Translations under genes and position numbers: made by a program
The notes under the pieces: model-generated
Seen by the model: the letters and a program-made list of their open reading frames with translations, nothing else
What the model was told of the DNA's origin: nothing
Database searches by the model: none
Assembly: GCF_013410775.1 (NCBI RefSeq)
Contig: NZ_JACCFH010000001.1
Span: forward strand, 2,232,001 to 2,296,000
Direction of reading: 5' to 3'
Length of the DNA: 64,000 nucleotides
Source of the DNA: Sphaerotilus montanus
GTDB taxonomy: Bacteria > Pseudomonadota > Gammaproteobacteria > Burkholderiales > Burkholderiaceae_C
Shown: in pieces, positions 4,997 to 27,105 of the stretch
Numbering within the stretch: the stretch's first letter is position 1
Layout: each line of letters opens with the position of its first letter

Positions 4997-5017
4997 CGGG
5001 GTGACGAATTTCTAGAA

Positions 5018-11840: not shown

Positions 11841-11849
11841 GATTCAGCG

Positions 11850-13247
11850 TCACGGTCGCGCCACCTCTTGCTGTCTTGGGAAGAGCATGCGAAACACGGT
11901 GAGCCCTTCCTGGGACTGTGCATCGACTGTCCCGCCATGGGCCTGCACGATGGCGCGGGTGATGGGCAGACCCAGACCTGCACCCTCGGACTCTGGATGC
12001 GCCCGTGATGGATCGGCGCGGTAGAACCGGTCGAAGAGGCGGGGCAGCACCACGGGATCGATGTGGTCCCCCGAGTTTTCCACCGTCACGAGGGTGCCTT
12101 CGACTGTCTCGCCAACCTTCACTGCCACCGTGCCTCGGTGATGGGTGTGGCGCAGGGCATTGGACAGCAGATTGCTCAGTGCCCTGCGGAACATCAGGCG
12201 ATCACCCAGGATGGCACCGTCGCCGTGCAGGCTCAGCGTGATGCCCTTTTCTTCCGCCACGGCTTCATAGAACTCCAGCAAAGCCTGCGCATCCTGGGCG
12301 GCCGAAAACGGCTCCTTGTGAGGAAGGTCCACACCCCGTTCGGTCTTGGCCAGAAAGAGCATGTCCGAGACCATGCGGGCGAGGCGCTGGTACTCCTCCG
12401 CGTTGGATTCCAGGGTGTTGCGGTAGGTCTCGGCATCACGCCTGGCAGACAAGGCCACCTGCGTTTGCGTCAGGAGGTTGCTGATGGGGGTACGCAACTC
12501 GTGTGCCAGGTCAGAAGAGAATTCCGATAACCGCCGGAAATCCTCCTGCAGGCGATCCAGCATCTGGTTGAGTTCCCGGGCGAGGTCGGCCATCTCGATC
12601 GGAACAGCCTCGACGGGCATGCGCTGGCTGAGCTGTTGGCCTGTGACGACAGAGGCCCGGGCTTTCATCGCCCGCAAGGGGGCCAAGCCTTTGTAGGCGG
12701 CAAACCAGCCCAGCACACCACTGACGCCGACGGCCAGCACCGCATACAACGCGAGGGTGCGCCGCAACTGGGCCATGAAATGCGTGTGGTGTACCGTGTC
12801 GATGGCGACCAGAACATCAAGTCTGTCGGATGAGGCATCGGCCAGGTTGGCCTGGAATCCCAGGCTGCGGAATTGATGACCCTTGTCACGCCAGTCCTGA
12901 ATGGCCGTCTGCGCACCGGCAGCGTGCGCCACCCACAACGACGCTGGTGGCTGAAATCCATTGGATCTGAAAATGGTTTCCCCTTGCCTGGATGCGACGA
13001 GGGCATACAGGCCATGGTGGTTGCCCAATGCCTCACCCAATCGCCACCGAGCGTCGTCGGTGGACTTGGCGGTGGTCAGGATCTCCTCGATCAGGTGCTG
13101 CTTGTCCTGCAGGGAGGACCGGTCCAGGTCCACGAAATGCCGCTCCGTCAGGACCATGAACAACACACCCAGACCCAGCACGATGGCCGCCGCTGCCATC
13201 GTGAAGAAAATGGTCAGCCGGCTCGTGAGCGAAAACGACCGAAACAC
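11850..13247 (-). CDS. cusS: Copper-responsive sensor histidine kinase
   Basis: A 465-residue membrane kinase of the heavy-metal sensor family (CusS/CopS/SilS). There are two transmembrane segments (about 12-33 and 166-188) flanking a periplasmic sensor with His-rich spots (GNHHGLY, TVHHTHF). They are followed by a HAMP segment, the phospho-acceptor box SSDLAHELRTPISNLL with His249, and an ATPase domain with EGAGLGLPITRAIV. It directly follows cusR; the cusR stop and cusS start abut. It should sense periplasmic Cu(I)/Ag(I) and phosphorylate CusR. Confidence 0.93.
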   Translation of the reverse strand: MFRSFSLTSRLTIFFTMAAAAIVLGLGVLFMVLTERHFVDLDRSSLQDKQHLIEEILTTAKSTDDARWRLGEALGNHHGLYALVASRQGETIFRSNGFQPPASLWVAHAAGAQTAIQDWRDKGHQFRSLGFQANLADASSDRLDVLVAIDTVHHTHFMAQLRRTLALYAVLAVGVSGVLGWFAAYKGLAPLRAMKARASVVTGQQLSQRMPVEAVPIEMADLARELNQMLDRLQEDFRRLSEFSSDLAHELRTPISNLLTQTQVALSARRDAETYRNTLESNAEEYQRLARMVSDMLFLAKTERGVDLPHKEPFSAAQDAQALLEFYEAVAEEKGITLSLHGDGAILGDRLMFRRALSNLLSNALRHTHHRGTVAVKVGETVEGTLVTVENSGDHIDPVVLPRLFDRFYRADPSRAHPESEGAGLGLPITRAIVQAHGGTVDAQSQEGLTVFRMLFPRQQEVARP

Positions 13248-13931
13248 TCAGGGGGTCTCCGGCATTTCCAGCACGTAGCCCATGCCGCGCACGGTCTGGA
13301 TCAGCTTGGGTTCCTGCCCCTCGTCGATCTTGAGGCGCAGGCGCCGCATCGCCACCTCGATGACGTTGGTGTCGCTGTCGAAGTTCATGTCCCAGACCTG
13401 TGAAGCGATCAGGGAGCGGGGAAGCACCTCGCCCTGTCGCCGCATCAGCAACTCCAGCAAGCCGAATTCCTTGGCCGTCAGGTCGATGCGCCGGCCGTTG
13501 CGGGAGACCCGGCGGCGCAGCAGGTCCAGTTCCAGATCCGCCACGCGCAGTGTGGTGGGCTCGGTACCGCTGCGCCCCCTGCGCAGGATGGTGCGCACCC
13601 GGGCCAGCAGTTCAGCGAACGAGAAGGGCTTGACCAAATAGTCGTCTGCGCCCAGCTCCAGGCCCTTGATCCGGTCCTCGACCTGATCGCGGGCGGTCAG
13701 GAACAGTACGGGCATGTGCAAGCCACGCTTGCGCAGGGAATGGAGCACTTGCCAGCCATCCATCCCGGGCAGCATCACATCCAGAATCACCAGATCGTGC
13801 TCGCCCTGTAGCGCCAGATGCAGCCCGTCCAGCCCGTCCTGCGCCAGGTCCACCACGAACCCGGCCTCTCGCAATCCTTGGCGCAGGTACTCGCCGGTCT
13901 TCGGTTCATCCTCGACGATCAGGATCTTCAC
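13248..13931 (-). CDS. cusR: Copper-responsive OmpR-type response regulator
   Basis: A 227-residue regulator with an N-terminal receiver domain (phospho-acceptor Asp51 in [13 protein letters not shown], with Lys in [13 protein letters not shown]) and a C-terminal winged-helix DNA-binding domain (about 128-222). Such regulators (CusR, CopR, PcoR) activate copper-resistance operons from a box of type TGACA-N4-TGT. Just such a palindrome lies at 13,994-14,011, between this gene and the divergent oxidase operon. Transcribed ahead of cusS. Confidence 0.94.
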
Positions 13932-13993
13932 GCACTCGCTCCGCTGTGTGGCATGGCGTGCAGTGTGCAGAGTTTCAGGGTGACTGGCCTGCA

Positions 13994-14011
13994 GATGACA
14001 GGAATGTCATC
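13994..14011. promoter_or_regulatory. Copper box (CusR/CopR-type operator)
   Basis: The perfect inverted repeat GATGACA-GGAA-TGTCATC occupies the 157-base region between cusR (leftward) and the oxidase operon (rightward). It matches the cop-box pattern TGACA-N4-TGTnAT known for CopR/PcoR/CusR. One operator could control both directions. I found no comparable box before the cusC operon at 5,170. Confidence 0.75.
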
Positions 14012-14088
14012 TTGCCGACAGCATCCTGACGGCCTCGGGTTTTCAGAATCTCCCCCCAACAAGTGTCGAGATTGCCCCCGAGGAGCCC

Positions 14089-14415
14089 ATGTCCACCACG
14101 AACCATCCTGTTGCTGTCAAAGACCTGCTGCCGCTGGCGTTGGTCTTGCTGGCAGGCACGGCAGCAGCGCAATCGCCTGCCGCACTGACCCAACCGGCCA
14201 TGCCGACCAGGCTGCAGTACACCTCCACGCTGAGCGGTTACCAAGCCTATGCGGACGAACCCGTCCAGTCCTGGCGCGAAGCCAACGACCGGGTGAGGCG
14301 TATCGGGGGATGGAAGGTGTATGCCAAGGAAAACCCACCGGGAGTGGCTCCGGCTGCAGAAACACCGGCGGCACCGCTGCCCCACGGTGCCCACCACGGA
14401 GGTGGCAAGCCATGA
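14089..14415 (+). CDS. Small exported protein of the copper operon, function unknown
   Basis: A 108-residue protein with a signal peptide (about residues 1-27, ending GTAAAQ). The mature part contains TSTLSGYQAYADEPVQSWRE and ends in a His-rich tail LPHGAHHGGGKP that could bind metal. Proteins of this look often precede an outer-membrane lipoprotein and a multicopper oxidase in copper clusters, but I know no established function. It is the first gene downstream of the copper box, and its stop overlaps the next start as ATGA. Confidence 0.7.
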   Translation: MSTTNHPVAVKDLLPLALVLLAGTAAAQSPAALTQPAMPTRLQYTSTLSGYQAYADEPVQSWREANDRVRRIGGWKVYAKENPPGVAPAAETPAAPLPHGAHHGGGKP

Positions 14416-15845
14416 AGCGTGTCCTGGACGTTTTTCGTGGCCGGCTGATGCTGTCCACCATCGCCCTGGCCGCACTGTCTGGTTGTGCCAGCGTCAGCCT
14501 GGAACAGCAGATGGCGAAGGTCAATGACGAGACGGGACCTTTCACCGACGGACGACTGGCCCTGGCGCGCACCGACCGCGAGCGCACCCAGCGGGCACAG
14601 ACCGCAGCCGACTTGCTGAAAGCGCCCGTGGGGCAGCGTGAGGCTGTGCATCTGGCCCTGGTCAACAGCCCGGCCTTGCAAGCCCTGCTGGCACGGGGAT
14701 GGGCCGAATCGGCCGATGCTGCACAAGTGGGTCGCATCGCCAACCCGGTGTTCAGTTTCGAGCGCATGGTCGCCGGCAGCGAACTGGAACTGGGGCGCGC
14801 CTTGTCCTTCGGGTTGCTGGATCTCCTGACCCTTCCCAGTCGCCAAGGCATCGCCCGACGCCAGATCGACCAGTCGCAACTGCGGCTTGCCAGCGAGGTG
14901 GTGGACCAGATCACGCAGGTGCGCCAAGCCTGGGTTCGTGCCGTCACGGCACAACAGACGTTCGCGTATGCCCAGCAGGTCTTGACCAGTGCCGAAGCCA
15001 GCGCGGACCTGGCTCGTCGCCTGCAGTCCGTCGGCACCTTCAACCGGCTCAGCCGGGCGCGTGAACAAGCGTTCTACGCCGACGCCGCCACCCGACTCGC
15101 CACGGCGGGTCATCAGGCCACGGCCAGCCGGGAAGAACTGGTGCGCCTGCTAGGGCTCGATGAAACGCAGGCGCAGGCCCTCCGCTTGCCCGAGCGCCTG
15201 CCCGATCTGCCCAAGCAGGCACTGGAACCCGATGCCGTGGGGTCGCTCGCCACCCGTGGCCGCCTGGACATTCGCCTGGCGCAGGCTGAGCTTCAGACCT
15301 CCGCCCAGGCGCAGGGGCTGAACACGTTCACCAGCTTCACGGACATCGAGCTGACCGCACGGCGCAACACCCGGTTCGACAACGAATCAGGGACGAAGTC
15401 CACCGCACGGGGATTCGAGATCGACGTGCGCCTGCCGGTCTTCGACTGGGGCGGGCTGCAACGTGATGCCATGAACGCACGCACGCTGGCCGCCACGAAC
15501 CGACTGGAGGCCACACTCCGGGTTGCGGGTTCCAGCCTGCGCGAGAGCTACTCGGCCTACCGCACGGCCTATGACATTGCCCGCCACCACCGCGACGAGG
15601 TCGTGCCGCTGCGCAAGGTCATCTCGGAAGAGAACCTGCTTCGCTACAACGGGATGCTCATCGGCGTGTTCGAGCTGCTGGCCGACTCGCGGGACCAGGT
15701 GAGCACCGTGATGGCCGCCATTGATGCAGAGCAGCAGTTCTGGCTGGCCGACGCGGCGCTGCAAGCCTCGCTGATTGGCCGTCCCACCAACACCACCCTG
15801 TCCGTGAATGCCAGCGCGCCCAGTGGGGGCGGTGCTGGTCACTGA
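14412..15845 (+). CDS. TolC-family outer membrane lipoprotein of the copper oxidase operon
   Basis: A 477-residue outer membrane efflux protein with a lipoprotein signal (AALSGCASVS, lipidated Cys near residue 21). Two OEP repeats follow, for example AVHLALVNSPALQALLARGW and the second-half FDWGGLQRDAMNAR. It is distinct in sequence from the CusC-like channel at 5,750. No pump or adaptor accompanies it here, although related genes are regularly linked to copper oxidases. It may be an alternative exit for the CusBA pump or support copper handling in the envelope. The upstream stop overlaps its ATG, and the oxidase gene starts 16 bases after its stop. Confidence 0.88.
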   Translation: MKRVLDVFRGRLMLSTIALAALSGCASVSLEQQMAKVNDETGPFTDGRLALARTDRERTQRAQTAADLLKAPVGQREAVHLALVNSPALQALLARGWAESADAAQVGRIANPVFSFERMVAGSELELGRALSFGLLDLLTLPSRQGIARRQIDQSQLRLASEVVDQITQVRQAWVRAVTAQQTFAYAQQVLTSAEASADLARRLQSVGTFNRLSRAREQAFYADAATRLATAGHQATASREELVRLLGLDETQAQALRLPERLPDLPKQALEPDAVGSLATRGRLDIRLAQAELQTSAQAQGLNTFTSFTDIELTARRNTRFDNESGTKSTARGFEIDVRLPVFDWGGLQRDAMNARTLAATNRLEATLRVAGSSLRESYSAYRTAYDIARHHRDEVVPLRKVISEENLLRYNGMLIGVFELLADSRDQVSTVMAAIDAEQQFWLADAALQASLIGRPTNTTLSVNASAPSGGGAGH

Positions 15846-15861
15846 GGGAAAGACCCGTTCC

Positions 15862-17274
15862 ATGACATCCAGACGAGATTTTTTCAGATACGCCGGGGTG
15901 ACCGGCGGAGCCGTGGCCATCAGTGCGGTGAGCCGTGTGGCGATGGCGGCACTGCCCGAGCCGGTGATCCAGACCCGGCCGGACACCATGCCGCCGCTGG
16001 TGCCCGACAGTGGCACGCCCTATAACCCGGTAGTCACCCTCAACGGGTGGACCCTGCCGTGGCGCATGAACCAGGGCGTCAAGGAATTCCACCTGGTGGC
16101 CGAACCGGTGGTGCGGGAGATGGCGCCGGGCTTCAAGGCCCACCTGTGGGGCTATAACGGCCAGAGCCCGGGGCCGACCATCGAGGTGGTCGAGGGCGAC
16201 CGGGTGCGGGTCTTCGTCACCAATAAGCTGCCCGAGCACACCAGCATCCACTGGCACGGCCAACGCCTGCCCAGCGGCATGGATGGGGTGTCGGGCCTGA
16301 CACAGCCCTCCATTCAACCCGGCAAGACCTTCGTCTACGAGTTCGTGGCACGCCGTCCCGGCACCTTCATGTACCACCCGCATGCCGACGAGATGACGCA
16401 GATGGCCATGGGCATGATGGGTTTCTGGGTGACCCACCCGAAGGCCCGGCATCCACTGATCGACGAGGTGCAGCGGGACTTCTGCTTCCTGCTCAACGCC
16501 TACGACATCGACCCGGGCAGCTACACGCCCAAGACGATGACGATGACGGACTTCAACCTTTGGTCCTGGAACAGCCGCATCTTTCCGGGCATCGACACGC
16601 TGAACGTGCGCCTGAACGACAAGGTGCGCATCCGCATCGGCAACCTGACCATGACGAACCATCCCATCCACGTCCATGGTCACGAGTTCACCGTGACGGG
16701 GACTGACGGCGGGCCGACACCCAAGGCATCCCGGTGGCCGGAGGTGACCGCCGACATCGCGGTCGGTCAGATGCGCCAGATCGATTTTGTGGCGGATGAA
16801 GAGGGCGACTGGGCGTTCCACTGCCACAAGAGTCACCACACGATGAACGCCATGGGCCACAACGTTCCGATGCTGATCGGTGTGGACCACAGCGGGGTGG
16901 CCCGGAAAATCAACAAGCTGATCCCCGAGTACATGGTGATGGGCGAGCGGGGCATGGCCGACATGACCGAGATGGAGATGCCCATTCCCGACAACACCGC
17001 GCCCATGATGACCGGGGAAGGCCCGTTCGGCTCGGTGGAGATGGGCGGCATGTTCAGCGTGCTCAAGGTGCGCCGTGACCAGAAGCCGGGCGACTACAAG
17101 GATCCGGGCTGGTTCAAGCATCCCGAGGGCACCGTGGCCCACGAATACACCGGTCCGCTGGCTGAGCCGGCGCGCTTCAAGGCCGAAGGAGGGCAGTCGA
17201 TGCCCCGCGTCCAGTCGCCGGCCAAGGTCACTGAAGTTCAAGTTCGCAAACCCGCGTCGCACAGCGGCCACTGA
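15862..17274 (+). CDS. Tat-exported multicopper oxidase
   Basis: A 470-residue periplasmic multicopper oxidase, probably converting toxic Cu(I) to Cu(II) at the expense of oxygen. The N-terminus has a twin-arginine signal (TSRRDFFRYAG). All four copper-ligand motifs are visible: IHWHG (His130, His132), YHPHADE (His172, His174), NHPIHVHGHEF (267-276) and FHCHKSHHTMNAM (320-331), with Met331 as the likely type-1 axial ligand. Beyond residue 340 a Met-rich segment (MVMGERGMADMTEMEM) resembles those that feed Cu(I) to CopA/CueO-like oxidases. It is shorter than PcoA/CopA (about 600), and the exact subfamily is uncertain. Confidence 0.92.
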   Translation: MTSRRDFFRYAGVTGGAVAISAVSRVAMAALPEPVIQTRPDTMPPLVPDSGTPYNPVVTLNGWTLPWRMNQGVKEFHLVAEPVVREMAPGFKAHLWGYNGQSPGPTIEVVEGDRVRVFVTNKLPEHTSIHWHGQRLPSGMDGVSGLTQPSIQPGKTFVYEFVARRPGTFMYHPHADEMTQMAMGMMGFWVTHPKARHPLIDEVQRDFCFLLNAYDIDPGSYTPKTMTMTDFNLWSWNSRIFPGIDTLNVRLNDKVRIRIGNLTMTNHPIHVHGHEFTVTGTDGGPTPKASRWPEVTADIAVGQMRQIDFVADEEGDWAFHCHKSHHTMNAMGHNVPMLIGVDHSGVARKINKLIPEYMVMGERGMADMTEMEMPIPDNTAPMMTGEGPFGSVEMGGMFSVLKVRRDQKPGDYKDPGWFKHPEGTVAHEYTGPLAEPARFKAEGGQSMPRVQSPAKVTEVQVRKPASHSGH

Positions 17275-17306
17275 GTTCCTTTCCCCCCACCCCTGGAGAT
17301 CCCCTG

Positions 17307-17795
17307 ATGCTTTCCAAGCTTTCGCGCACACAACAACTCATCACCGTCACCGCATTGGTTTTGTCGAACACGGCGTTTGCCGGCGGTACGCATGGGGGCG
17401 GCCACGATGCGGCAGAAACCGCCATCGGCAAGCCCGGCGTGGCGGCCAAGGCAGCCCGCACGGTGACCATCGAGATGAGCGACGCCATGCGCTACACGCC
17501 GTCGGACATCCAGGTCAAACAAGGCGAGACCGTCCGTTTCATCGTGAAGAACAGCGGCAAGGTCAAGCATGAGCTGAGCCTCGGCACCGAAAAGGAACTG
17601 CTGGAGCATCTGGAGCAGATGAAGAAGTTCCCTGACATGGAGCACGACGAGCCGAGCAAGGTTTCGCTGGCCCCCGGCAAGCAGGGTGAAATCGTCTGGC
17701 AGTTCACCAAGGCTGGGGCGGTCAACTTCGCCTGCCTGATGCCCGGGCACTACGAAGCCGGCATGAAGGGCGCGGTCAAGGTCGCCAAGAAGTAA
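17307..17795 (+). CDS. Periplasmic cupredoxin
   Basis: A 162-residue blue-copper-type protein with a signal peptide (about residues 1-25) and a His-rich spacer (GGTHGGGHDA). The cupredoxin fold shows type-1 ligands: His in VKHELSL, then Cys, His and Met in NFACLMPGHYEAGM. An Asp/Glu/Met-rich loop (MKKFPDMEHDE) lies between. It probably carries electrons to or from the upstream multicopper oxidase, or acts as a periplasmic copper buffer. The ribosome-binding site GGAGA precedes the ATG. It is in the same direction as the oxidase, 32 bases downstream. Confidence 0.88.
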   Translation: MLSKLSRTQQLITVTALVLSNTAFAGGTHGGGHDAAETAIGKPGVAAKAARTVTIEMSDAMRYTPSDIQVKQGETVRFIVKNSGKVKHELSLGTEKELLEHLEQMKKFPDMEHDEPSKVSLAPGKQGEIVWQFTKAGAVNFACLMPGHYEAGMKGAVKVAKK

Positions 17796-17822
17796 CGCAG
17801 CCGTCCACCAGGAGCCTTGTCG

Positions 17823-18311
17823 ATGCACCCGGCTGTACCTTCACTGAATCCCCGGCGACGCACACTGCTGTTGGGTGTGCTTGCGTTGAGTGCGGCCACG
17901 CCGACCTTGGCAAAAAAACCGCAAGTCGTAGCAGTCCCCATTCAGGTCTGGAAAGACCCGAGTTGCGGCTGCTGCAAGGATTGGATCACGCATCTCGAAA
18001 AGAATGGCTTTGCCGCGACGGCCCTTGATCAAGGCAATAGCGAGGCTCGGGTGCGGCTCGGGATGCCCCAGAAATATGGCTCCTGCCACACCGCGCTGGT
18101 GCAAGGCTATGTGATCGAAGGACATGTCCCGGCAGCGGACATCCAGCGCCTGCTCAAGAAGCGGCCCGAAGCACTGGGTCTGGCGGTGCCGAGCATGCCT
18201 CTCGGCTCACCTGGAATGGATGGCCCTGCCTATGGAGGTCGGCGTCATCCCTACCAAGTGCTGCTGATCCAGAAAGACGGCTCGGCTCAGGTTTTCAACT
18301 CCTACTCGTGA
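17823..18311 (+). CDS. DUF411 metal-binding protein
   Basis: A 162-residue exported protein of the DUF411 family, frequently linked with copper or other metal-resistance genes. The cysteine cluster DPSCGCCKDWITHLEKNGF (about residues 42-60) and the downstream SCHTALVQGYVIEGHVPA are family signatures and probable metal ligands. The signal has RRRTLLLGVLALSAA, a Tat-like opening. The ATG at 17,823 is chosen because GGAG lies at the right distance, and an in-frame TTG six bases earlier is less likely. The true role is undetermined. Confidence 0.87.
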   Translation: MHPAVPSLNPRRRTLLLGVLALSAATPTLAKKPQVVAVPIQVWKDPSCGCCKDWITHLEKNGFAATALDQGNSEARVRLGMPQKYGSCHTALVQGYVIEGHVPAADIQRLLKKRPEALGLAVPSMPLGSPGMDGPAYGGRRHPYQVLLIQKDGSAQVFNSYS

Positions 18312-18318
18312 AGAAACC

Positions 18319-18660
18319 ATGAACAAATTCAAACAGATTCTCGTCATCTCCGCCCTGATTTTGGGTGTCGCCTTGCCCATGAGCAGCTTCGCTCAGACAG
18401 CGATGGAGCCAGGCAAGATGGACATGTCGCAGCAGGCCGCCATGACAGATGGGGAAGTGAAGAAGATTGACATGGAGGCTGGAAAGATCACCCTCAAGCA
18501 TGGCGACATCAAGCACATGGATATGCCCGGCATGACCATGGTGTTCACCGCCAAGGACAAGAGCTTGCTCACCAACGTGAAGCCTGGCGACAAGGTCAAG
18601 TTCATGGTCGTTCAAGAGGGCGGCAAGATGTTGGTCACGTCCATCCAGCCGGCGAAATGA
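18319..18660 (+). CDS. cusF: Periplasmic copper chaperone CusF
   Basis: A 113-residue periplasmic protein with a signal peptide (about 1-25) and a small beta-barrel CusF domain. A Met-rich linker (MEPGKMDMSQQAAM) precedes it. The ligand stretch HMDMPGMTMVF fits the His/Met sites of CusF, with Phe where E. coli has Trp next to the last Met. CusF delivers Cu(I)/Ag(I) to CusB. A second CusF-like domain is fused to CusB in this window. The stop overlaps the next gene as ATGA. Confidence 0.9.
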   Translation: MNKFKQILVISALILGVALPMSSFAQTAMEPGKMDMSQQAAMTDGEVKKIDMEAGKITLKHGDIKHMDMPGMTMVFTAKDKSLLTNVKPGDKVKFMVVQEGGKMLVTSIQPAK

Positions 18661-19289
18661 GCATGCCGGGCCTGCGTGAACCTGCTGGTCAGGTTGCCCG
18701 AGATGCCGCGGCGAGGTCTGGGCTGCTGGACGAGTCCCAAGGCTACGGCCTCGTCTCGAAAGTGTTGCACTGGGTCGGCGGCTTGATGGCGCTATTGCTG
18801 TTCGGTGTCGGCACAGCCGTCTGGTTCACCAGTGGTTCTGACAGTTCCCACCTGCATCACAGGTTGTCGGCCCTGCATATTGCGCTGGGCGGCTTGTTTG
18901 CTCTGCCTTTGCTGGTCAGGGTATTGTGGCGCCTGTCAAGTGTTTGGGCAGGGCGCCACCCCTTACCGGTTCCCAGCCAAAACGGGACGAGAAGGCTTGC
19001 GCGGACAGTGCAGTTTGGTTTGCTCACCATGCTGACGGTACTGATCGTCAGCGGACCACTGCTGCGGTGGTGGAGCGGAAATCCGATCGAACTGTTCGGA
19101 GGGTGGTACATCCCCAATCCTTTAGAGGACAACAAGCTTCTGCGAGTCTATACACGGGCCATTCACCAGCGCGCTTGGCAAATCATGGCCGTGCTGCTGG
19201 TGTTCCACATCGGGGGTGCGCTGCTGCATCGGCGTTTGTCGTGGCAACGCATGCGATGGTTTGATTTTAGGTCTCGATGTCAGCTTTAA
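18657..19289 (+). CDS. Cytochrome b561-family membrane protein
   Basis: A 210-residue four-helix cytochrome b/b6 (b561-like) protein. Conserved histidines typical of haem ligation are seen in KVLHWVGGLMALLLF, LSALHIALGGLFALP, YTRAIHQRAWQIM and LVFHIGGALLHRR. It could exchange electrons between quinones and periplasmic copper proteins such as the oxidase and cupredoxin upstream. It is translationally coupled to cusF. Its stop codon overlaps the convergent tniQ stop, with no intergenic spacer, so the last residues (about FDFRSRCQL) may derive from a fusion to transposon sequence. Confidence 0.85.
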   Translation: MSMPGLREPAGQVARDAAARSGLLDESQGYGLVSKVLHWVGGLMALLLFGVGTAVWFTSGSDSSHLHHRLSALHIALGGLFALPLLVRVLWRLSSVWAGRHPLPVPSQNGTRRLARTVQFGLLTMLTVLIVSGPLLRWWSGNPIELFGGWYIPNPLEDNKLLRVYTRAIHQRAWQIMAVLLVFHIGGALLHRRLSWQRMRWFDFRSRCQL

Positions 19290-20380
19290 TAAGTCAGGTC
19301 AATTTCATCGGCTCGCGAGTCAAGGTTGATTTTATGGCGACGCTCGAAGAACGGCCGAGCACGAGTGGCGATCCTGTTGTTTACACAGTCCTCGTACCAT
19401 GCAGGCGGATCCTTCATGTCCCGGAGCAGAAAGTTATGTCGAATCGCACGCGCCCGACATGCCTGATGCAGCCGAACCTGCGGGTCTACCAATAACCAGG
19501 CGGCAAACTGCATGTACTGATTGCGCACATGGCACTGGTAGGACTCCAATGCAACACGATTGGTGTTGATGGGGACGTAGTCATCTGCGCCAACCATGTC
19601 CGCGACATGCTGGCCCAGGTGGTAGCGATTGCGCTCCTTTGAGACCATGGCTGTCATGTGGTGGAACAAGGAAACCTCTTTCAGGTCTATCTTCACCGAT
19701 TTCCCCGCAGAGAAATCATCGATGTCAGAGACGACCCGTCGAAGCCAGTCGAATGCTTCCTCATTGTAGACCTTGACAGGTTTGGCGGAAGCCGCTCTCA
19801 AATCGAAGCTGCATTCGTGACAGGTAGACAAAGGATCGAACTCAACGTGGTTGGGTTGGCCCATTCCGATGCGGTGATAGCTCACCGCGGAATCACATTG
19901 CGGGCATCGATCCATCAGCATGCAATTGTGCTTGAGGCACATGGTCTTAATCGCTAATCGCCACGTTTTGCGGAAATAGGAGACTTTGTCTTCTTGCAAG
20001 CAGATTGGGCAAAACTGCTGACCATAGCCCTCACGTTTCCGGTGATACATCTGCATCAGTTGTATCCACTGGAGCGGTCCAGCTTCTCGGTAGTGCTTGA
20101 CTAGAACACCATCAAATATTCGCAGGGTTGTTTGCTCAGCTTGCATTTGAGTTGCTCCAGTATGAAGTTTCAAATCATCTAGCAACCATTGCGGTGCAAG
20201 TCTGTCTATGTCTCTATTCCAGATTTGTCGTTTGTTGCCATACAACATATTGCAAAACGACTGAACCTTGAGCCCGTGCCCATGGGCAAGACGAACCAGC
20301 CAACTTGAGAGTAACTCGTCTTCCAGTGGCTTGTATCTGATGGGCCACAAATCTTGATGGAAGCGAGCCATGTGCCTCAT
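19286..20380 (-). CDS. tniQ: TniQ family transposition targeting protein
   Basis: A 364-residue protein of the TniQ/TnsD family, which bridges the target site and the AAA+ regulator TnsC/TniB. Two zinc-binding clusters typical of the family are present: FCPICLQED followed by MCLKHNCMLMDRCPQC, and a further TCHECSFDL. It is far shorter than Tn7 TnsD (about 508) and closer to the TniQ of Tn5053-like or CRISPR-linked elements. The start at 20,380 gives an ATGA overlap with the upstream tnsC; an in-frame start at 20,422 is also possible. No cas genes accompany it, so the targeting mode is unknown. Confidence 0.88.
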   Translation of the reverse strand: MRHMARFHQDLWPIRYKPLEDELLSSWLVRLAHGHGLKVQSFCNMLYGNKRQIWNRDIDRLAPQWLLDDLKLHTGATQMQAEQTTLRIFDGVLVKHYREAGPLQWIQLMQMYHRKREGYGQQFCPICLQEDKVSYFRKTWRLAIKTMCLKHNCMLMDRCPQCDSAVSYHRIGMGQPNHVEFDPLSTCHECSFDLRAASAKPVKVYNEEAFDWLRRVVSDIDDFSAGKSVKIDLKEVSLFHHMTAMVSKERNRYHLGQHVADMVGADDYVPINTNRVALESYQCHVRNQYMQFAAWLLVDPQVRLHQACRARAIRHNFLLRDMKDPPAWYEDCVNNRIATRARPFFERRHKINLDSRADEIDLTY

Positions 20381-21372
20381 AGCGGTGGGCGATAGTTCTT
20401 TCTCCGTGATGGGGGAACCCAATCAATTCCCTTGATCAATTTCAAGGATAGTTTTTCTTCTCCTGACTGAATCGCTGCAACTGCCACCTCCTTGACGAGA
20501 TCAAATATATCCCCCAGTGAACCTTCTGCACGGTTGACAATCGTCAGCAGAGACTCTGGCGAATCCAGGTCGGATGGATATTTGACAGGGATTCTCTTCT
20601 GTAGCGTGGCCAACAAAATTCCTGTGTTTTGGTCAGTGCGCCAACTTGGCAGTTTCAAGGGGATGAATCGGCTTGACATCTGCGGGTCAGCATTGAAGGC
20701 GTTGTACGCCTCGTCAATGCCGGCTGCCACCAGACAGACTTTGGTCTCGTTGCTCAGGCTCTTCAACGCATTTCTGAATTCACGCTGTCGATTTAGACTT
20801 CCGGCAATCAAATGGTGAATTTCGTCAATGATCAGCATCTTGACGCCGAGTTGTCGGAACATCAGTTTGATCTGGGAATATTTTTCGTAGCTGGCGGCTC
20901 GACTTTGGTACTTCGCCATGATGGCGTCAAGAATGCGACTGTAGAAGTCTGCTATGTCTGGTCTGGGTGGTGCGTCAATCATGACGACTGGACAGGTCAT
21001 GATCTCGCTTGCCGGATCCACATCCGGCGGATGTAGTGAAAGAAATCGCTCCAAGATTGTGCTCTTTCCACTGAAAGATGCGCCCACCAAGAGCAAGCTG
21101 GGCATGCGTGTCACCGGTGGATAGTCGAGCAACATTTCCATGCGTTCGATGGCTTCCTTCGCGTGCGGCAGAGGGAGCCAGGATCCTTGGCGGATCGCCC
21201 GAATTCTGACGGCGTCTGACTCTTTCATCAGATCACGCGCCACACTATTCAAGTGAGGATATGGCAGATCGTGTGCAAGGTCTGATTTCTGATCCTTTGT
21301 TTCAGATACCTGCTTGCTTTGGGTCTTTTTGACTTTTGGCTTTGCTGATGGGGTTGCTTCAATATTCGTCAT
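20377..21372 (-). CDS. tnsC: TnsC/TniB-type AAA+ ATPase of the transposon
   Basis: A 331-residue AAA+ ATPase that activates the transposase after target selection. Walker A is GASFSGKST (about residues 97-105), Walker B is MLIIDEIHHLI, and a sensor-like SSRFIPLKLP follows. The N-terminus is charged and Lys-rich. By length and sequence it resembles TniB/TnsC of compact Tn7-like elements rather than the 555-residue TnsC of Tn7 itself. It overlaps tnsB by 14 bases and tniQ by ATGA. Confidence 0.9.
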   Translation of the reverse strand: MTNIEATPSAKPKVKKTQSKQVSETKDQKSDLAHDLPYPHLNSVARDLMKESDAVRIRAIRQGSWLPLPHAKEAIERMEMLLDYPPVTRMPSLLLVGASFSGKSTILERFLSLHPPDVDPASEIMTCPVVMIDAPPRPDIADFYSRILDAIMAKYQSRAASYEKYSQIKLMFRQLGVKMLIIDEIHHLIAGSLNRQREFRNALKSLSNETKVCLVAAGIDEAYNAFNADPQMSSRFIPLKLPSWRTDQNTGILLATLQKRIPVKYPSDLDSPESLLTIVNRAEGSLGDIFDLVKEVAVAAIQSGEEKLSLKLIKGIDWVPPSRRKNYRPPL

Positions 21373-23266
21373 CCAGCGGCCTTACTTTCGATCGGTCATA
21401 ACCTGGCAGGGCTGGCGGTTCTGCACTTGCCGTGGGATTGCTGACTTTGGGTAGTTCGATTTCATTTTTAATGGCGCGAGCCTTTCGATGTTCTTTTTTG
21501 ACTTGCTGCGCATGGCGAGCCTGTTTTGTTTTCTGTGCAGCATCAGCTTCGAGGTCGCGCTGACGATTGAGGTAGGTGAACTTTGTTCGCTCGTCGTAGT
21601 CCTGTATTCCCAGATCCCGGGTTCTCTTCTGCGTTTCTCGCCATTCCCAAATGCTGGTCACTGGTAGACCGGAATCCCGGTATGGAATGGCATAATACTT
21701 CCGCATATCCGGATCGAAGAAGTAAAGCTGGCTGATGTCCCTTGGATCCCGGCGGAACCTGAATAGGCGAGCCAACTTTGGGTTGGCTGGATCACGTGAA
21801 TTGATCCATGGCCTGAGAACATCATGATAATAGTAGATCTTGTCCAAAAGGACGCCGTAATCTTGAATGGTCCGTTCTTCGAATGGCATGAAATCCATCC
21901 GCGCTTTCTCTTCGTCCAGCCGGATCAGTTGCAGTCCACGTCCTGGCGTAGTTTTGGTTCCGAAAATGCCTTCGCGCCATTTTGTCAGCGGAGTAGTGCC
22001 AATTCCCCTGTGGATATTAGAGTGATAGCGAGCAAAAACGAGCACCAGCCATTTTTCAAGCTCGCTAAGCGTCATACAGGCGTTGCCTTCGGCATCATAA
22101 TCTCCCTTCTCTTTGATGCCTGAGAATGTTGCCCCTCTGACGGACTTGAGTTCTTCTGAAACGGTTCCCATCAGTCGCTCAATATGAGCGCCATAGTGAG
22201 GTTTCTTGACAGGTCTCAACGTGACATCGATGTCATATTCAGCGCCGGCCGCTTTGAGCATGTCGCCTCTGAACTCTCGGGCGTTGTCCATGTGCAAGGT
22301 ATCCATCACGCCATAGCAGGGCCATTCCAAATCGGACATTCCCAAACGTAATAGCCACTTATTTTTCGGGAAGATGGCGTGCAGTACACACATTCCTGCA
22401 GACATGGCCGAAGGTGGGTCCAGTGTCAGGTACATGCCCACGCACATGCGACTGAACACATCGATGGCCAGTGTGATCCAGGCGCGGTTGATCGGCCTGC
22501 GATGTTCATCATCGACAATGATCACGGGCAGGAGCGTATGGTCCATCTGGACAATAGCTAAAGGCCAGTTGGCGTCAGGAATTTTTCCAATCTTTGGGTC
22601 GAACCGAAGCTTGGCAACACGATCGCCTTCACGCTGCTTGATTCTGGTTTGTTCATCGATCCATTCGATGTGGCGCCGCACGGTCGTTGCCGCAGGCATT
22701 GGAACTCCTGCATTACTGCAGCGACGTCGAACCTCTACGGTGGTTGCCGCGACAGATACCTTCTGCTGGGTGAGGTGAAAATTTTCAATACAGTCTTTGA
22801 GGATTGTTTCCACTTCAGGTGACAAGCGGCCTTTCATTTGTCCTCCATCACGCCGGTTAGGCAGTAATGATGACAATAACCCTGTGTTCCTGTACGTGGA
22901 CAACCAGCGATAAAGAGTCGCCACGCTGATGCCTGCTGCTTCTGCTTGCAGCTTGTATTCCGCACGAGATTGGCGCGTACCTGTTATCCAAGGATCGATG
23001 ATCGCCCGCCGGGCTTTGGCAATATCCCAGTCGTCTTGTGAAATGCTTTCAAGATCGATAGCCGGTGGAGTTGGTCCTTCGCTTGGCGCTACGGTGCGAG
23101 GACTCTGAAGTGAATCCAGTTGCAGAAGTACCTGCTGTTCTGAGCCAATTTCTTTCGCCAAGATCAGGTTCATGTCAACCAGACTTTGGACGACATAATC
23201 GCGGCCAAGGTGGTGGACAGTTGCTCCCTTGGTGATGCGCATGACGCTGGGCGGGGGCTTTTTCAT
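21359..23266 (-). CDS. tnsB: TnsB/TniA-type DDE transposase of the transposon
   Basis: A 635-residue transposase of the Mu/TnsB/TniA family. There are N-terminal helix-turn-helix segments (ISVATLYRWLSTYRNTGL, about 113-130) and a retroviral-integrase catalytic core with the DDE triad: Asp242 in VQMDHTLLP, Asp327 in LHMDNAREF and Glu363 in HIERLMGTVSE. A charged C-terminal tail should contact TnsC. The ATG at 23,266 is preferred because it begins two bases after the tnsA stop. It cuts the 3' ends and joins them to the target. Confidence 0.92.
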   Translation of the reverse strand: MKKPPPSVMRITKGATVHHLGRDYVVQSLVDMNLILAKEIGSEQQVLLQLDSLQSPRTVAPSEGPTPPAIDLESISQDDWDIAKARRAIIDPWITGTRQSRAEYKLQAEAAGISVATLYRWLSTYRNTGLLSSLLPNRRDGGQMKGRLSPEVETILKDCIENFHLTQQKVSVAATTVEVRRRCSNAGVPMPAATTVRRHIEWIDEQTRIKQREGDRVAKLRFDPKIGKIPDANWPLAIVQMDHTLLPVIIVDDEHRRPINRAWITLAIDVFSRMCVGMYLTLDPPSAMSAGMCVLHAIFPKNKWLLRLGMSDLEWPCYGVMDTLHMDNAREFRGDMLKAAGAEYDIDVTLRPVKKPHYGAHIERLMGTVSEELKSVRGATFSGIKEKGDYDAEGNACMTLSELEKWLVLVFARYHSNIHRGIGTTPLTKWREGIFGTKTTPGRGLQLIRLDEEKARMDFMPFEERTIQDYGVLLDKIYYYHDVLRPWINSRDPANPKLARLFRFRRDPRDISQLYFFDPDMRKYYAIPYRDSGLPVTSIWEWRETQKRTRDLGIQDYDERTKFTYLNRQRDLEADAAQKTKQARHAQQVKKEHRKARAIKNEIELPKVSNPTASAEPPALPGYDRSKVRPLDDEY

Positions 23267-23268
23267 GA

Positions 23269-23925
23269 TCAGTTTCCAGGCAGCCAGACCTCGACGTTTG
23301 AGGACAGCGGTTCTCTGTCTATGCTGAACATGATCCGGTTGCGGACCATCAGGTTCCACAAGATCGGTGTCCACTGCGCTTGCTCTTCTGGCGTTGCCCC
23401 GAGCATGTCAAGCAGAGACTGAAGTTCAGCGGTTCCCCCCAAGACTTGCAATCGCGCAAGTACGCCTGCTTCTTCTTCGGGAGCGGGTGAGAGGTTTCGA
23501 TACCTGCGTAAGAACTTCAGATTTGCCAAGCGCTGCGTTCGGATGTCCAGTTCGGTCTTCGTCAAGAAGATCCAACCGCGATCGGCGGCGTACTTCTCGG
23601 CGACGGCGAACTTTGGCTGAAGTTCCTCGGCCTTGCGAGTCAAGTCAGCGGTGGTCTTGACTTCGATGAGTTGTGCTGGAGGTCGGTGACCGGTCGCGTC
23701 TTCCCGGAATGTCACCAAGAGGTCTGGGGTGTAGCGGCGCGACCTGCCTGGCATCGGTATCGTCACGGGCTGCTCGACGTACTTTTCGACCATGGGGTCG
23801 AAGTCCAGCAGCATCATGTAGTCCTTCTCCAGCAGCGACTCGAAGCCGATCAGGACGTCCGACTTCGAACTGGCGTATGCGCCTGTGACCACCAAGTGGT
23901 TCTTCGGGATCTTTCGTGATGGCAT
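23269..23925 (-). CDS. tnsA: TnsA-type endonuclease of the transposon
   Basis: A 218-residue restriction-like nuclease that cuts the 5' ends of the element. The catalytic elements are all visible: acidic residues in GFESLLEKDY (29-36), Asp68 in YTPDLLV, and Glu88/Lys90 in IEVKTT. A C-terminal winged-helix-like part follows. With intact TnsA, the element should move by cut-and-paste, unlike Tn5053 and TnsA-less elements that form cointegrates. It is the first gene of the tnsABC-tniQ operon. Confidence 0.9.
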   Translation of the reverse strand: MPSRKIPKNHLVVTGAYASSKSDVLIGFESLLEKDYMMLLDFDPMVEKYVEQPVTIPMPGRSRRYTPDLLVTFREDATGHRPPAQLIEVKTTADLTRKAEELQPKFAVAEKYAADRGWIFLTKTELDIRTQRLANLKFLRRYRNLSPAPEEEAGVLARLQVLGGTAELQSLLDMLGATPEEQAQWTPILWNLMVRNRIMFSIDREPLSSNVEVWLPGN

Positions 23926-24409
23926 CGGCGGTGGCTCCCTGGGTGTTGTGCCGAGCTGGTGGCCGATTCAGTCTCGGCTGCTTCGAGACATTTTCAGATT
24001 TTGTTTTTCGGAACGAATGCGGGTAAACCCTTGGTTGGTTCAGCCGCCCCTCCGATGTCCTCTATCAAGGCGACAGGGATGTGCGAGGCCGAGGTGTCTG
24101 CACTTGACGGGTCGGTTCTGTTCCAGGTCAGCAGATCTGAGGGTGGTGCGCCATGACTGAAGAACAAGGCGTCTGTATCGGCTGGGGCGTGCCGTTCATG
24201 GTCGCGATGAGCAAGCCTGCCGATGTCGATGTCTTTCTGAGGAGGCCACTCTGGCTGAGGTAAGATTTCGGAACGGCATTGCTCGGTGCCCGCTGCTCAC
24301 CTCGGCAAACCCTGACGGGACGACACTGACTTGATCCATGACCGGTTCCCCTTCTGTGGCGAATCCCGGCAGTGAGCACCGTTGATTCGCACGCAGCCAA
24401 GGAACTGTC
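23926..24409. other. Gap upstream of tnsA, probable promoter region
   Basis: A 484-base stretch without a convincing gene. Short reading frames on the minus strand (24,128-24,522) look like chance frames. The AT-rich part at 23,980-24,020 (containing TTTTCAGATTTTGTTTTT) is the most likely site of the tns promoter. It includes one CTTCGAGA match to the right-end sites, perhaps a TnsB contact, but no full repeat. TTTCGGAACG occurs twice (near 24,006 and 24,266). Nothing else was recognised. Confidence 0.4.
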
Positions 24410-25174
24410 ATGCGTTTCATTCCCACGTCGGCGGCCATCGTCGAATCACTCAAGAAGCAAGCCAAGAAGCTCCAGCGCAACGGGGGCGGCAAGCACGCTG
24501 ATCTCCTTGACCGTGTCGCCAAAGGCGCGGGCTACCAGCATTGGCATCATGTGTCGATTTGCCTCAAACAGACCGAGACGAAGTCCGGCGTTGAGGCGCT
24601 GCACTTGGATTGCGACATCATCCTGCGCGCTGCCCGTGAGGGTGTTGAGAAGGTGATCGTCACCAATGCTGGTGAGTTGCCTGTGCCGCTCGTGATGTTC
24701 GCCTGCCAGCAGGATGCATGGTTGCTTGATCCCGACGAGAGCCTTGTGCTCTGCTTGATGTTTCAAGGGGAAGAGCAGGAGCGGCACTTCGAGGATAGCC
24801 CCCGCCAGATTCGCATCGGCTGGGATGGCACCTATGCTTTCAACGGCGAGGCGTTCGTCGTCGCGACTGAGCATCCGACGGTGGGTACACGTGTCATCCT
24901 CGGCTATCCATTGGAGGAACTGCGCCGGTGGATCGACAAGGCGCAGGCCTATGGCAAACGCTTCGACACGTCGATTGGCCAGGATGATGCGATTGACCTC
25001 ACGCCAGACTTGGTTGCACGCCTGATTGCGGAGGGCTGGGAGGTGAAATCGATCGAGGAAGGCCGGCGAGGTGGTGCACGCTTCAGTCCGAGCCGCAAGA
25101 GCCTGGTCTATCCGCCGCAGATTTCAGACAACGACGACGGCCTGGAGCCGGCTGCACCTTCAGTTGGCATGTAG
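24410..25174 (+). CDS. Unknown protein with an N-terminal helical domain seen in mobile elements
   Basis: A 254-residue soluble protein. The first 50 residues (SLKKQAKKLQRN, then HADLLDRVAKGAGYQHWHHV) resemble the short helical motif found at the N-terminus of many plasmid and transposon proteins of unknown function. That motif is sometimes annotated as a glyoxalase-superfamily N-terminal domain (PF20066). The remainder is acidic and unrecognised, with DLTPDLVARLIAEGWEV near residue 200. The gene lies between the tns operon and the proposed right end, on the opposite strand to tnsA. It is therefore probably element cargo or an accessory gene. GC is intermediate, about 58%. Confidence 0.7.
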   Translation: MRFIPTSAAIVESLKKQAKKLQRNGGGKHADLLDRVAKGAGYQHWHHVSICLKQTETKSGVEALHLDCDIILRAAREGVEKVIVTNAGELPVPLVMFACQQDAWLLDPDESLVLCLMFQGEEQERHFEDSPRQIRIGWDGTYAFNGEAFVVATEHPTVGTRVILGYPLEELRRWIDKAQAYGKRFDTSIGQDDAIDLTPDLVARLIAEGWEVKSIEEGRRGGARFSPSRKSLVYPPQISDNDDGLEPAAPSVGM

Positions 25175-25246
25175 GGCTTTTGACCGGATGCCCGTCACCG
25201 AGTCGTTCGTTTCAGTGGCGACTCGGGAGAGCGGGCGGCGGCCGAA

Positions 25247-25341
25247 TTTAGTCTCATCAACTTCGATATCTTTTCTCGCATGATGCGAGAAATTTTGGCT
25301 AAGTCTGGTGCTATTTTCTCGTTATCTTCGAGATGCTGTCA
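25247..25341. repeat. Putative right end of the Tn7-like element with three TnsB-type sites
   Basis: Three related sites of about 21 bp start at 25,247, 25,269 and 25,312, that is, 22 and 43 bases apart. They fit a loose pattern TnTTTTCTCG-N6-TTCGAG. The middle copy also forms a hairpin (TTCTCGCAT/ATGCGAGAA). Nine bases beyond the last site the sequence reads TGTCA (25,337-25,341), so read inward the element would start TGACAGCAT. Tn7-type ends likewise have a short terminus followed by abutting TnsB sites of about 22 bp. Resident 70%-GC sequence begins immediately to the right. Confidence 0.6.
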
Positions 25342-25395
25342 GGCACGGACCTCTGACCTCTGGCGCAGCGAACGCGGCCGCCCTGCGGACCGCGT

Positions 25396-27105
25396 TCAAT
25401 CGAAGTGGTATCCCTCGGCGGCGACCACCCGCCACGAGCCGTCCCCCGGCAGCTCCAGCACCCAGCGGTGGAAGGGCAGGATCGCCGGCCGGTGGCTGAT
25501 GCTGACCGGCGTGCTGCCGATGCCGGCGAGCTGGGCGTACAGCCGCTCCTCGTTGGCAGCGTCCAGCGCGCTGGAGGCCTCGTCCAGCATCACGTAGCGC
25601 GGTCGCGCCAGCAGCACCCGCGTGAACGACAGCCGCTGTTGCTCGCCGACCGAGAGCACCTTGGCCCAGTCGCGCTCCGCGTCCAGCCCGCCCACCCGGT
25701 CGGCCAGATCGGGCAGGTTGACCTGGTGCAGCAGCGCGCGCAGCTCCTCGTCGGTGACCTCGCGCTCGGGGTGCGGGTAGAGCATCTGGCTGCGCAGCGT
25801 GCCCGGGGACAGGTAGGGCTGCTGCGGCAGGAAGAGCATTTCCTCGTGGCCCGGCCGCACGACGCGCCCCGCGCCGGTCTGCCACAGGCCGGCCATCACC
25901 CGCAGCAGCGAACTCTTGCCGCAGCCGCTCGGCCCGGTGATCAGCAGCCCCTCGCCGGGCGCGATGGCGAGCGTGACTTCGCGGATCAGCGTGTGCTCGT
26001 GCCCGGGGGTCTGCACGGTGACCAGCTCCAGCGCGAGCTGGGGGCCGTCGGCGGTCTCGATGCCGGGTTCGGCGTCGGCGGCGGTCTGGTCGTCGAGCGC
26101 CTGCGAGAAGCTGTCGAGCCGGTTCACGCCGGCACCGAAGCGGCTCAGACTCTCGAAGTGCTGCACGATCAGCGTCAGCGCGCTCAGGATGGCGGTGAAC
26201 GCACCCGCGGCCTGCACCGCCCGGCCCACTTCCATGCGCCCCGACAGCACCTCGTCGGCAATGATCACGCTGGGCAGCGCGAGCGTGAGGAAGCTGTGCG
26301 CGTACTGGAACAGGTTGAGGTTGAACTGCCAGCGCAGCACGTGCCGGTAGTTGCGCAGCAGGTCGCCGAACAGGCGGCGCAGGCCCCCCAGCTCCTGCCC
26401 TTCGCCGCTGTGGAAGGCGATCGACTCGGCGTGCTCGCGCACCCGCACCAGTCCGAAGCGGAAATCGGCCTCGCGCCGCAGTTGCCGGAAGTTCAGCCCG
26501 ATCAGCCGCTGGCCGAACACCGCCCCGGTGAACCAGGTGCCCAGCAGCGCGTAGCCGATCAGGAAGGCCACCAGCGGCCGCGAGATGGTCCAGAGCACGC
26601 CGGTGAAGGCCACCAGATCGATCACCGCACCGAGCACCACCATCAGGAAGTACAGCGACTGCGAGGTGAAGCTGTTGACGTCCTCGGCGATGCGCTGGTC
26701 GGGGTTGTCGATGCCGGCGTGCGCGTTGAGGTGGTAGTAGGCGCGGCGGTGGAAGTAGCGCTGCAGCAGGTGGTCGGTGAGCCAGCGCCGCCACTGCATG
26801 CCCAGCGTGTCGCGCACGAAGTAGTAGCAGGCGTAGAGCGGCACGGCAGCCACCAGGATGACCGTGAAACGCCGGATCGCGGCCCAAAAGCGCTCAGCAT
26901 CCCCGGCGGCCAGCGCCGAGGTGAACTCGCCCGTCTCCTGGTTGAACAGGACGTTGAAGCCCGTCTGTCCCAGCAGCAGCACGACCAGCAGCGCCACCAT
27001 GGCGCGGGCGCGTACCCGCTCGTCCGATTGCCAGTACGGCGCGGCGATGTGGACGAAACGTTGCCAGAGGCGGCGGTCGGCGCCGGGTTCGTCGAGGGGC
27101 GGCAT
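25396..27105 (-). CDS. ABC transporter, fused permease and ATPase (YddA/SbmA-like)
   Basis: A 569-residue half-transporter. The N-terminal membrane domain (about 30-330, SbmA/BacA-like, with GMQWRRWLTDHLLQRYF and YYHLNAHAGIDNPDQRIAED) is followed by an ABC ATPase. The ATPase has Walker A GPSGCGKSS (about 408), signature LSVGEQQR and Walker B VMLDEASSALD. It belongs to the ABC group that includes E. coli YddA, with unknown substrates (peptides, cobalamin or fatty acyl compounds in relatives). It is likely co-transcribed with the glycosyltransferase at 27,127-28,659. The Tn7-like element ends 54 bases beyond its 3' end. Confidence 0.87.
   Translation of the reverse strand: MPPLDEPGADRRLWQRFVHIAAPYWQSDERVRARAMVALLVVLLLGQTGFNVLFNQETGEFTSALAAGDAERFWAAIRRFTVILVAAVPLYACYYFVRDTLGMQWRRWLTDHLLQRYFHRRAYYHLNAHAGIDNPDQRIAEDVNSFTSQSLYFLMVVLGAVIDLVAFTGVLWTISRPLVAFLIGYALLGTWFTGAVFGQRLIGLNFRQLRREADFRFGLVRVREHAESIAFHSGEGQELGGLRRLFGDLLRNYRHVLRWQFNLNLFQYAHSFLTLALPSVIIADEVLSGRMEVGRAVQAAGAFTAILSALTLIVQHFESLSRFGAGVNRLDSFSQALDDQTAADAEPGIETADGPQLALELVTVQTPGHEHTLIREVTLAIAPGEGLLITGPSGCGKSSLLRVMAGLWQTGAGRVVRPGHEEMLFLPQQPYLSPGTLRSQMLYPHPEREVTDEELRALLHQVNLPDLADRVGGLDAERDWAKVLSVGEQQRLSFTRVLLARPRYVMLDEASSALDAANEERLYAQLAGIGSTPVSISHRPAILPFHRWVLELPGDGSWRVVAAEGYHFD

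Follow-up and report, generated by a model that had tools for sequence, protein, structure and literature searches.

We propose that a 44,832 bp copper-resistance element in Sphaerotilus montanus is a transposon of the Tn7 kind, from a lineage that targets the 3' end of lipA (lipoyl synthase) on the chromosome and has a single short TniQ as its putative target selector. We consider this very probable. The window, which is the whole stretch of 64,000 nucleotides that we analysed, contains the right part of the element and the host gene beyond it:

1..25341, no strand: part of the element in the window (from the GGCAC duplication, the termini, and the arrays of sites)
638..4636, minus strand: low-GC cluster with DUF3485, exosortase, DsbA-like, SCO1, DsbD N-terminal domain, and signal peptidase II genes (Pfam)
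6808..11840, plus strand: CusB-type adaptor (with a CusF domain) and RND pump genes (Pfam)
11850..13931, minus strand: CusS-type sensor kinase and response regulator genes (Pfam)
15808..19289, plus strand: multicopper oxidase, cupredoxin, DUF411, CusF, and cytochrome b561 genes (Pfam)
19286..20422, minus strand: tniQ, 378 aa, start uncertain, the putative lipA selector (Pfam TniQ, 2e-27; tree)
20377..21372, minus strand: tnsC, a TniB-type AAA ATPase of 331 aa (Pfam TniB, 7.3e-63)
21359..23374, minus strand: tnsB transposase, 671 aa (Pfam Mu-transpos_C, 8.7e-08)
23269..23925, minus strand: tnsA endonuclease, 218 aa (Pfam TnsA N domain, 7.5e-16, and C domain, 5.2e-06)
23972..23990, plus strand: lone TnsB-site-like sequence directly upstream of tnsA (matrix score 15.1)
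24410..25174, plus strand: ORF of 254 aa between tnsA and the right end, within the element (no Pfam match)
25252..25341, plus strand: right end, with TnsB-site-like repeats at 25252, 25274, and 25317 and the terminal sequence TGCTGTCA
25342..25346, plus strand: target-site duplication GGCAC (left copy at L057:505-509)
25396..27105, minus strand: host gene for an SbmA/BacA-like ABC transporter, which is convergent with lipA and flanks the right end (Pfam)

The core of four overlapping genes on the minus strand is as the first-pass annotation described it, and by Pfam the set of Tn7-like genes is complete (TnsA, TnsB, TnsC, and a TniQ-domain protein). TnsB is 35-69% identical to its relatives. 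The claim that all four proteins are catalytically complete stood for two of them: TnsC has Walker A (GASFSGKS) and Walker B (MLIIDE) motifs, and the zinc-cluster residues of TniQ (C138, C141, C162, H165, C173, C176, C201, and C204) are invariant in an alignment (n=38). The TnsB DDE triad and the nuclease residues in TnsA were read by eye only. No TniQ match other than the 378-aa protein was found across the 5.07-Mb genome, so the element was rightly described as having one short TniQ and no tnsD. The structure model of this TniQ has a pLDDT of 85.5, and its best Foldseek matches are TniQ and TnsD from type I-B CRISPR-associated transposons. The reported lack of cas genes also held, as Pfam gave no Cas family among the tested ORFs of the element (a subset of its ORFs). 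An exact 20-mer repeat search found no CRISPR-like array in the element. We found no near relatives on plasmids: the TnsB matches listed were all below 60% identity, as were 309 of 309 TniQ matches. When genome contigs were scanned with a single TnsB sequence there was no match; a TniQ alignment as the query did find relatives.

The right terminus (window 25341) reads TCA where ACA is expected. The left terminus reads TGT and is 19,491 bp to the left of window base 1, at C1:2212510 (L057:510). Non-TGT ends are already known from Tn7-like elements (PMC11406308, in the part available). Both ends have arrays of TnsB sites, and GGCAC, a 5-bp duplication of the Tn7-like kind, flanks both exact termini. 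We located the ends from site motifs read in the right ends of relatives; an inverted-repeat search gave no usable pair of ends. The left terminus was first placed near TAAGAAAA and was replaced by TGTGAGTG after the GGCAC duplication was seen.

The left end, which is the end away from tnsA, sits inside the last codons of lipA. If the flanks are joined without the element, they restore a lipA that ends in HAGVGTDL*. Across the 13 elements with matching duplications, the terminus is 24-32 nt after the YHAD-type codons, and in six of them it is at 26. In most cases the lipA frame reads on into the left end and terminates within it, which leaves LipA at about its normal length and presumably functional. 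TniQ would bind the conserved coding stretch R-S-S-Y-H-A-D of lipA and, via TnsC, would set TnsA and TnsB about 26 nt downstream of it. The first-pass annotation suggested that the element has its own attachment site. It does, but this site lies at the 3' end of lipA rather than of the ABC transporter gene, and many relatives share it.

Wherever lipA adjoins the relatives' elements, it is always at the left end, away from tnsA; relatives at random positions, the finding named beforehand as refuting an attachment site, were not seen. Where the left side was fetched, lipA was at this end in 8 of 11 relatives (the stretches fetched for G754, G558, and G235 have no lipA). Among 50 further genomes, 30 have lipA on the tniQ contig, on the side and strand that fit; of the remaining 20, 18 have it on a different contig and 2 gave no match, which leaves no same-contig case against the lipA site. 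(The lipA searches covered 72 genomes from 80 loci. L106, L115, L120, L124, L142, L144, L156, and L158 were left out: the contigs of the first five were already included under other handles, and L144, L156, and L158 duplicate the record or genome of another locus.) The lipA of L162 is on the wrong strand. In Variovorax L132, about 85 kb of contig on the left-end side of tniQ is free of lipA, and the gene is on a different contig. Matching 5-bp duplications were present in 5 of the 7 elements that had a readable right terminus (the host's and 4 of 6 relatives) and absent from 2; in a second test they were present in 8 elements and absent from 8 (16 loci, after setting aside 3 of 19 without tnsA). 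Repeats with a 20-bp spacing follow lipA at 32 of 39 occupied sites, compared with 1 of 11 genus controls (2 of 22 distant lipA genes have no anchor motif). The hosts of the lineage range from Neisseria to Methylobacter.

The TniQ tree separates these elements from others. All 40 of the 40 rows with lipA on the same contig are on one side of a branch (SH-aLRT 99), and the other side has none. Three rows on the lipA side are labelled as not lipA (L134, L143, and L164). In the L134 genome, a TnsE-like ORF adjoins lipA. On the non-lipA side, 12 of 25 TniQ rows are short as well (334-410 aa). Also on that side, the genomes of L163, L170, L173, and L179 carry, on a different contig, a lipA with a left-end-like junction or a remnant of TnsE, perhaps from a second element. 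From the tree, and from the finding that no other gene besides tnsE is shared, we infer that TniQ is probably the reader of lipA. Against this stand the shortness of the protein, taken in PMC10293859 (in the part available) as a sign of an additional selector, and the short TniQs on the non-lipA side. We lean somewhat towards a fuller reading, in which a TniQ of ~325-390 aa, with no TnsD-type extension, TnsF, or Cas protein, reads lipA alone; the left end is a replacement, in-frame, harmless tail for LipA; and one lineage extends through the beta- and gammaproteobacteria. As part of this reading, the tail supplied by the left end would make an insertion inside an important gene harmless.

The element was first described as having no tnsE, which was incorrect: a divergent homologue of TnsE is encoded at its other end, beyond the window (L057:619-2349, near the left end, on the strand opposite to the tns core). 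The assignment is clearest in a profile-profile comparison with annotated TnsE (Prob 94.5, E 8.4e-08, 457 columns). Comparisons with a single TnsE sequence were weak or failed, Pfam TnsE_C matched 2 of 19 of the TnsE-like proteins (best E 0.0068), the top Foldseek matches were the C-terminal domain of TnsE (E about 1), and a PDB sequence search with the protein gave no match. Since this gene is present in 26 of the 26 elements compared (G308 was left out of this comparison) and usually adjoins lipA, lipA might be recognised by the TnsE-like protein, either by itself or together with TniQ, and TniQ might be a mere adaptor. Short TniQs elsewhere do require a partner (PMC10293859, in the part available). 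However, the same family is also found beside the long TniQ of L163, L171, L179, and L049, where the contig or fetched stretch showed no lipA. A Tn6022-like plasmid element from Acinetobacter has it too. Known TnsE acts in plasmid targeting, according to the available part of PMC11406308. We therefore think it quite unlikely that TnsE selects lipA. By analogy to Tn7, the divergent TnsE would instead offer a second route, to conjugating plasmids.

Alternatively, what brings TniQ to lipA might be a small RNA, a protein of the host, or some cargo product that went unrecognised. This would fit with a TniQ that has no long C-terminal extension, and host factors and small RNAs are invisible to sequence comparison. 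On the other hand, the commonest cargo family besides tnsE is in just 7 of the 26 elements, the element has no CRISPR-like array, and a TnsF-like gene, which Tn6022 has after tniQ, had no match in the 26 elements. (The query was the 480-aa hypothetical protein encoded after tniQ in L264, a Tn6022-like element; it is taken to be TnsF solely from its position, its size, and its CxxC motifs.) We consider such a guide unlikely. As for the ABC transporter gene, the element does adjoin it downstream, with 54 bases between the right terminus and the ABC stop codon. Its 3' end was suggested to be the target, but the gene that recurs in the relatives, at the opposite end of their elements, is lipA, and in the element-free relatives G702 and G789, lipA and the ABC gene are plain neighbours. 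The sole ABC match among 20 fetched relatives is at 30%, in the ATPase domain, and is ~5 kb from the L047 tnsA. With no close ABC match in those relatives and with lipA recurring, we reject the ABC gene as the target; it is very improbable.

Our best reading makes the element a sister lineage of Tn6022, with lipA as its homing site and the short TniQ as the means of reaching it. The two groups share separate TnsA and TnsB, a TniB-type TnsC, a TniQ of ~360 aa, a TnsE encoded away from the core, close to the left end and on the other strand (L264/L266; PMC10293859, in the part available), and copper cargo, which is found in a Tn6022-like plasmid example. They differ in their site, which is comM for the Tn6022 group, and TniQ similarity is limited to residues 26-210 (35% identity). 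The CRISPR-associated transposons (I-F3, I-B, and V-K) share the TniQ fold, but here we found no Cas family among the tested ORFs and no array. The Tn5053 family also has one TniQ, but it is said to target plasmid resolution sites (PMC11406308, in the part available), and the present element is in a chromosomal gene. This element has tnsA, which Tn5053 is not known to have. Prototypic Tn7 is similar in its TnsABC, TniQ-domain protein, TnsE, 5-bp duplication, and use of a conserved gene's 3' end as the homing site. It differs in that it homes to glmS with a TnsD of 508 aa (in the R721 copy), whereas the sole TniQ here is 378 aa and the site is lipA; in that its tnsE is within the operon instead of at the far end; and in that its att site faces the right end (PMC11406308, in the part available) rather than the left.

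Known homing sites of Tn7-like elements include glmS, yhiN, comM, tRNA genes, and parE (PMC11406308, in the part available), and lipA joins this list. No paper describing lipA as such a site was among the literature matches listed, and neither "lipA" nor "lipoyl" occurs in the main text of PMC10293859, PMC11406308, or PMC8649781. The part of PMC10702557 that was available describes a Burkholderia metal island with four tns genes and names no insertion gene; the available parts of PMC9301364 and PMC5658596 have unrelated content. As a rule, a short TniQ points to an additional selector; the lipA lineage seems to break this rule, so it may be a small, protein-only system for asking how TniQ reads DNA. 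It would also be a case of insertion into a coding gene in which the transposon supplies the protein's end. A fixed insertion site accounts for the copper-resistance island. The metal cargo proposed in the first-pass annotation is indeed there and is of the copper type, with efflux and oxidation genes. The 254-aa ORF near the right end has a weak NCBIfam match to an N-terminal helicase region (6.5e-06, below the cut-off).

We propose that the target of this element is lipA, the gene for lipoyl synthase. The four genes that the first-pass annotation placed at 19286-23925 of the window, tnsA, tnsB, tnsC and tniQ, are all there, as overlapping ORFs on the minus strand, and the entire genome (5,068,925 bp in 3 contigs; the window is C1:2232001-2296000) has just one match to the TniQ domain. 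To locate the ends, we used a site matrix built from the relatives' repeats, such as TCGCATCTACTTCGATATT, in the DNA upstream of tnsA. The matrix matched at 25252-25335 of the window, which is the right end, and at a cluster of left-end sites 45 kb away. To place the left terminus, we took the 5 bases just outside the right terminus and looked for a copy of them directly before TG(T/A); this gave GGCAC followed by TGTGAGTG at genome position 2212510. The element is 44,832 bp long, is flanked by GGCAC on both sides, has the termini TGT (left) and TCA (right), and includes the ORF at 24410-25174; the right 57% of it is inside the window.

The ABC transporter gene had been suggested as the attachment site, but the left flank of the element is the 3' end of lipA (identified from its sequence). 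Joining the flanks in silico restores a lipA that ends HAGVGTDL*, 39 nt before the convergent stop codon of the ABC gene; with the element inserted, LipA ends HAGVGTVSDSE*. Within the genus, 12 of 13 genomes have a match to lipA and 7 of 13 to the ABC gene (own genome counted in both). The two genes are directly adjacent, with no element, in G702 and G789; they are about 0.9 kb apart in G635, separated by about 2.9 kb of other genes in G791, and distant or on separate contigs in G786 and G454.

A sequence resembling a TnsB site lies directly upstream of tnsA, about 1.26 kb from the outer right-end sites and separated from them by a 254-aa ORF. Since the right-end sites are all grouped together in several relatives, the stretch at 23972-25251 may have been inserted there after the right end had formed.

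Searching with TnsB, we found matches in 24 of 399 genomes for the order (E ≤ 1e-100) and 11 of 399 for the family (E ≤ 1e-130), own genome included. Among 20 fetched loci of relatives, 19 have matches to TnsA, TnsB, TnsC and TniQ; the exception (L047) is missing tniQ and most of tnsC. Where the left side was fetched, lipA is at the left end of 8 of 11 elements (G626, G013, G189, G243, G491, G377, G308 and G348); the left-side stretches of the other three (G754, G558 and G235) showed no lipA. The lipA element of G377 (L044) may be inactive, as its tnsB is split into several reading frames.

We also scanned genome contigs with a TniQ-alignment profile and retained the best 80 of 129 relatives. 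lipA is within the fetched stretch at 19 of the 80 loci, which include Chromobacterium, Massilia, Neisseria, Methylobacter, Thiomicrospira, Hydrogenovibrio, an Alteromonadaceae bacterium and unclassified proteobacteria. We searched 50 of these genomes for lipA: in 30 it shares a contig with tniQ and lies to the left-end side, on the opposite strand (for 12 of these the contigs were matched by length); it is on another contig in 18, of which 10 have a left-end junction after it; and two of the 50 gave no match (48/50 matched). More distant genomes have lipA too (21/22), but it is the left flank of tniQ in 0 of 22 (another contig in 20, wrong strand in 1). In Polynucleobacter, a single contig (323,428 bp) has two lipA-lineage tniQ copies (L117 and L144), arranged in line ahead of one lipA. 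The junction at this lipA has one left end and then a second repeat type close by, an arrangement that resembles two elements stacked at the same site.

Matching 5-bp duplications were found for 5 of 7 elements in a first set (own element included) and, in a second set, for 8 of the 16 named loci that have tnsA; 7 of those 8 lie 135-143 bases upstream of the tnsA match. In the 13 elements with duplications, the distance from the YHAD-type codons to the start of the terminus is 24-32 nt (26 nt in 6). We compared 39 occupied lipA genes (our own, 7 other relatives with G numbers, and 31 from named genomes). Repeats spaced by exactly 20 bp (with 13 or more of 18 bases matching) follow lipA at 32 of 39 occupied sites, at 1 of 11 genus controls, and at 2 of 20 scored distant lipA; our own left end lacks them, and its best repeat is at a spacing of 30. 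Counting by eye, the lipA frame continues for 10-21 residues past the D codon in 32 of 39; in the other 7 it ends short of the terminus, at residue 7 or 8. We infer that the in-frame LipA tail may be under selection.

The element had been described as lacking tnsE, but a TnsE-like family is present in all 26 elements compared (the next commonest gene family is in 7). In most of them the gene is within 140 bases of lipA and reads inward from the left end. A profile of the family matches seven annotated TnsE (E = 8.4e-08), while a single TnsE as query does not match it. At 35 of the 39 occupied sites, a TnsE-like ORF lies within 2.5 kb of lipA. In the other-contig set this is so for 9 of 15 lipA genes, compared with 1 of 22 distant lipA genes and none of the 11 genus controls. 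The profile also matches in L163, L171, L179, L049 and a Tn6022-like plasmid element of Acinetobacter; those four loci have TniQ of 522-540 aa with the same TnsE family nearby. PMC10293859 reports that Tn6022-like elements have a TnsE encoded remotely, close to their left end.

A quick tree of TniQ (87 rows) splits into sides of 62 and 25 rows (SH-aLRT 99). The larger side holds all 40 rows with lipA on the same contig, all 10 with the junction on another contig, 9 unknowns and 3 labelled not-lipA. Every row on the smaller side is labelled not-lipA; in the genomes of four of these (L163, L170, L173 and L179), lipA is on another contig and has a left-end-like junction or remnant beside it. TniQ is 325-387 aa in 39 of the 40 same-contig rows; on the smaller side it is 511-556 aa (n = 11), 334-410 aa (n = 12) or over 900 aa (n = 2). 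In the model of the window's TniQ (pLDDT 85.5), the C-terminal part from residue 221 is all-helical; the model's best Foldseek matches are type I-B CAST TniQ and TnsD. Because the site and the TniQ clade go together, and the sole other shared gene, tnsE, also occurs without lipA, the best-supported interpretation is that TniQ would do the reading of lipA.

The nearest kin are the Tn6022 group, which feature TnsF (encoded after tniQ) and target comM. A TnsF-like protein had no match in the 26 elements compared, and the insertion here is in lipA rather than comM, so we do not file the element in that group; we read it as a sister lineage that homes to lipA. BLAST aligns the TniQ of the Tn6022-like plasmid element to the window's TniQ over residues 26-210 only. 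According to PMC11406308, Tn7-like elements do not all turn the same end towards the recognised gene, and the nearer end is usually the one with overlapping sites; here, lipA is faced by the left end, whose sites are closely spaced. lipA did not appear as a Tn7-like site in the portions of the literature that we searched. The supplements of the main surveys were outside this scope, and such elements may appear in them with no comment on where they insert.

Left of the window (fetched as L057), the element has an IS66-type transposase near its left end (L057:5735-7459). At L057:9148-13206 it encodes an AAA protein (TRIP13-like match) together with two calcineurin-like phosphoesterases; these are possibly a defence set, with weak to moderate PADLOC matches. 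At 44001-48000 of the window, the G+C content falls to 0.54-0.60, versus near 0.70 for the genome; this is possibly another island.
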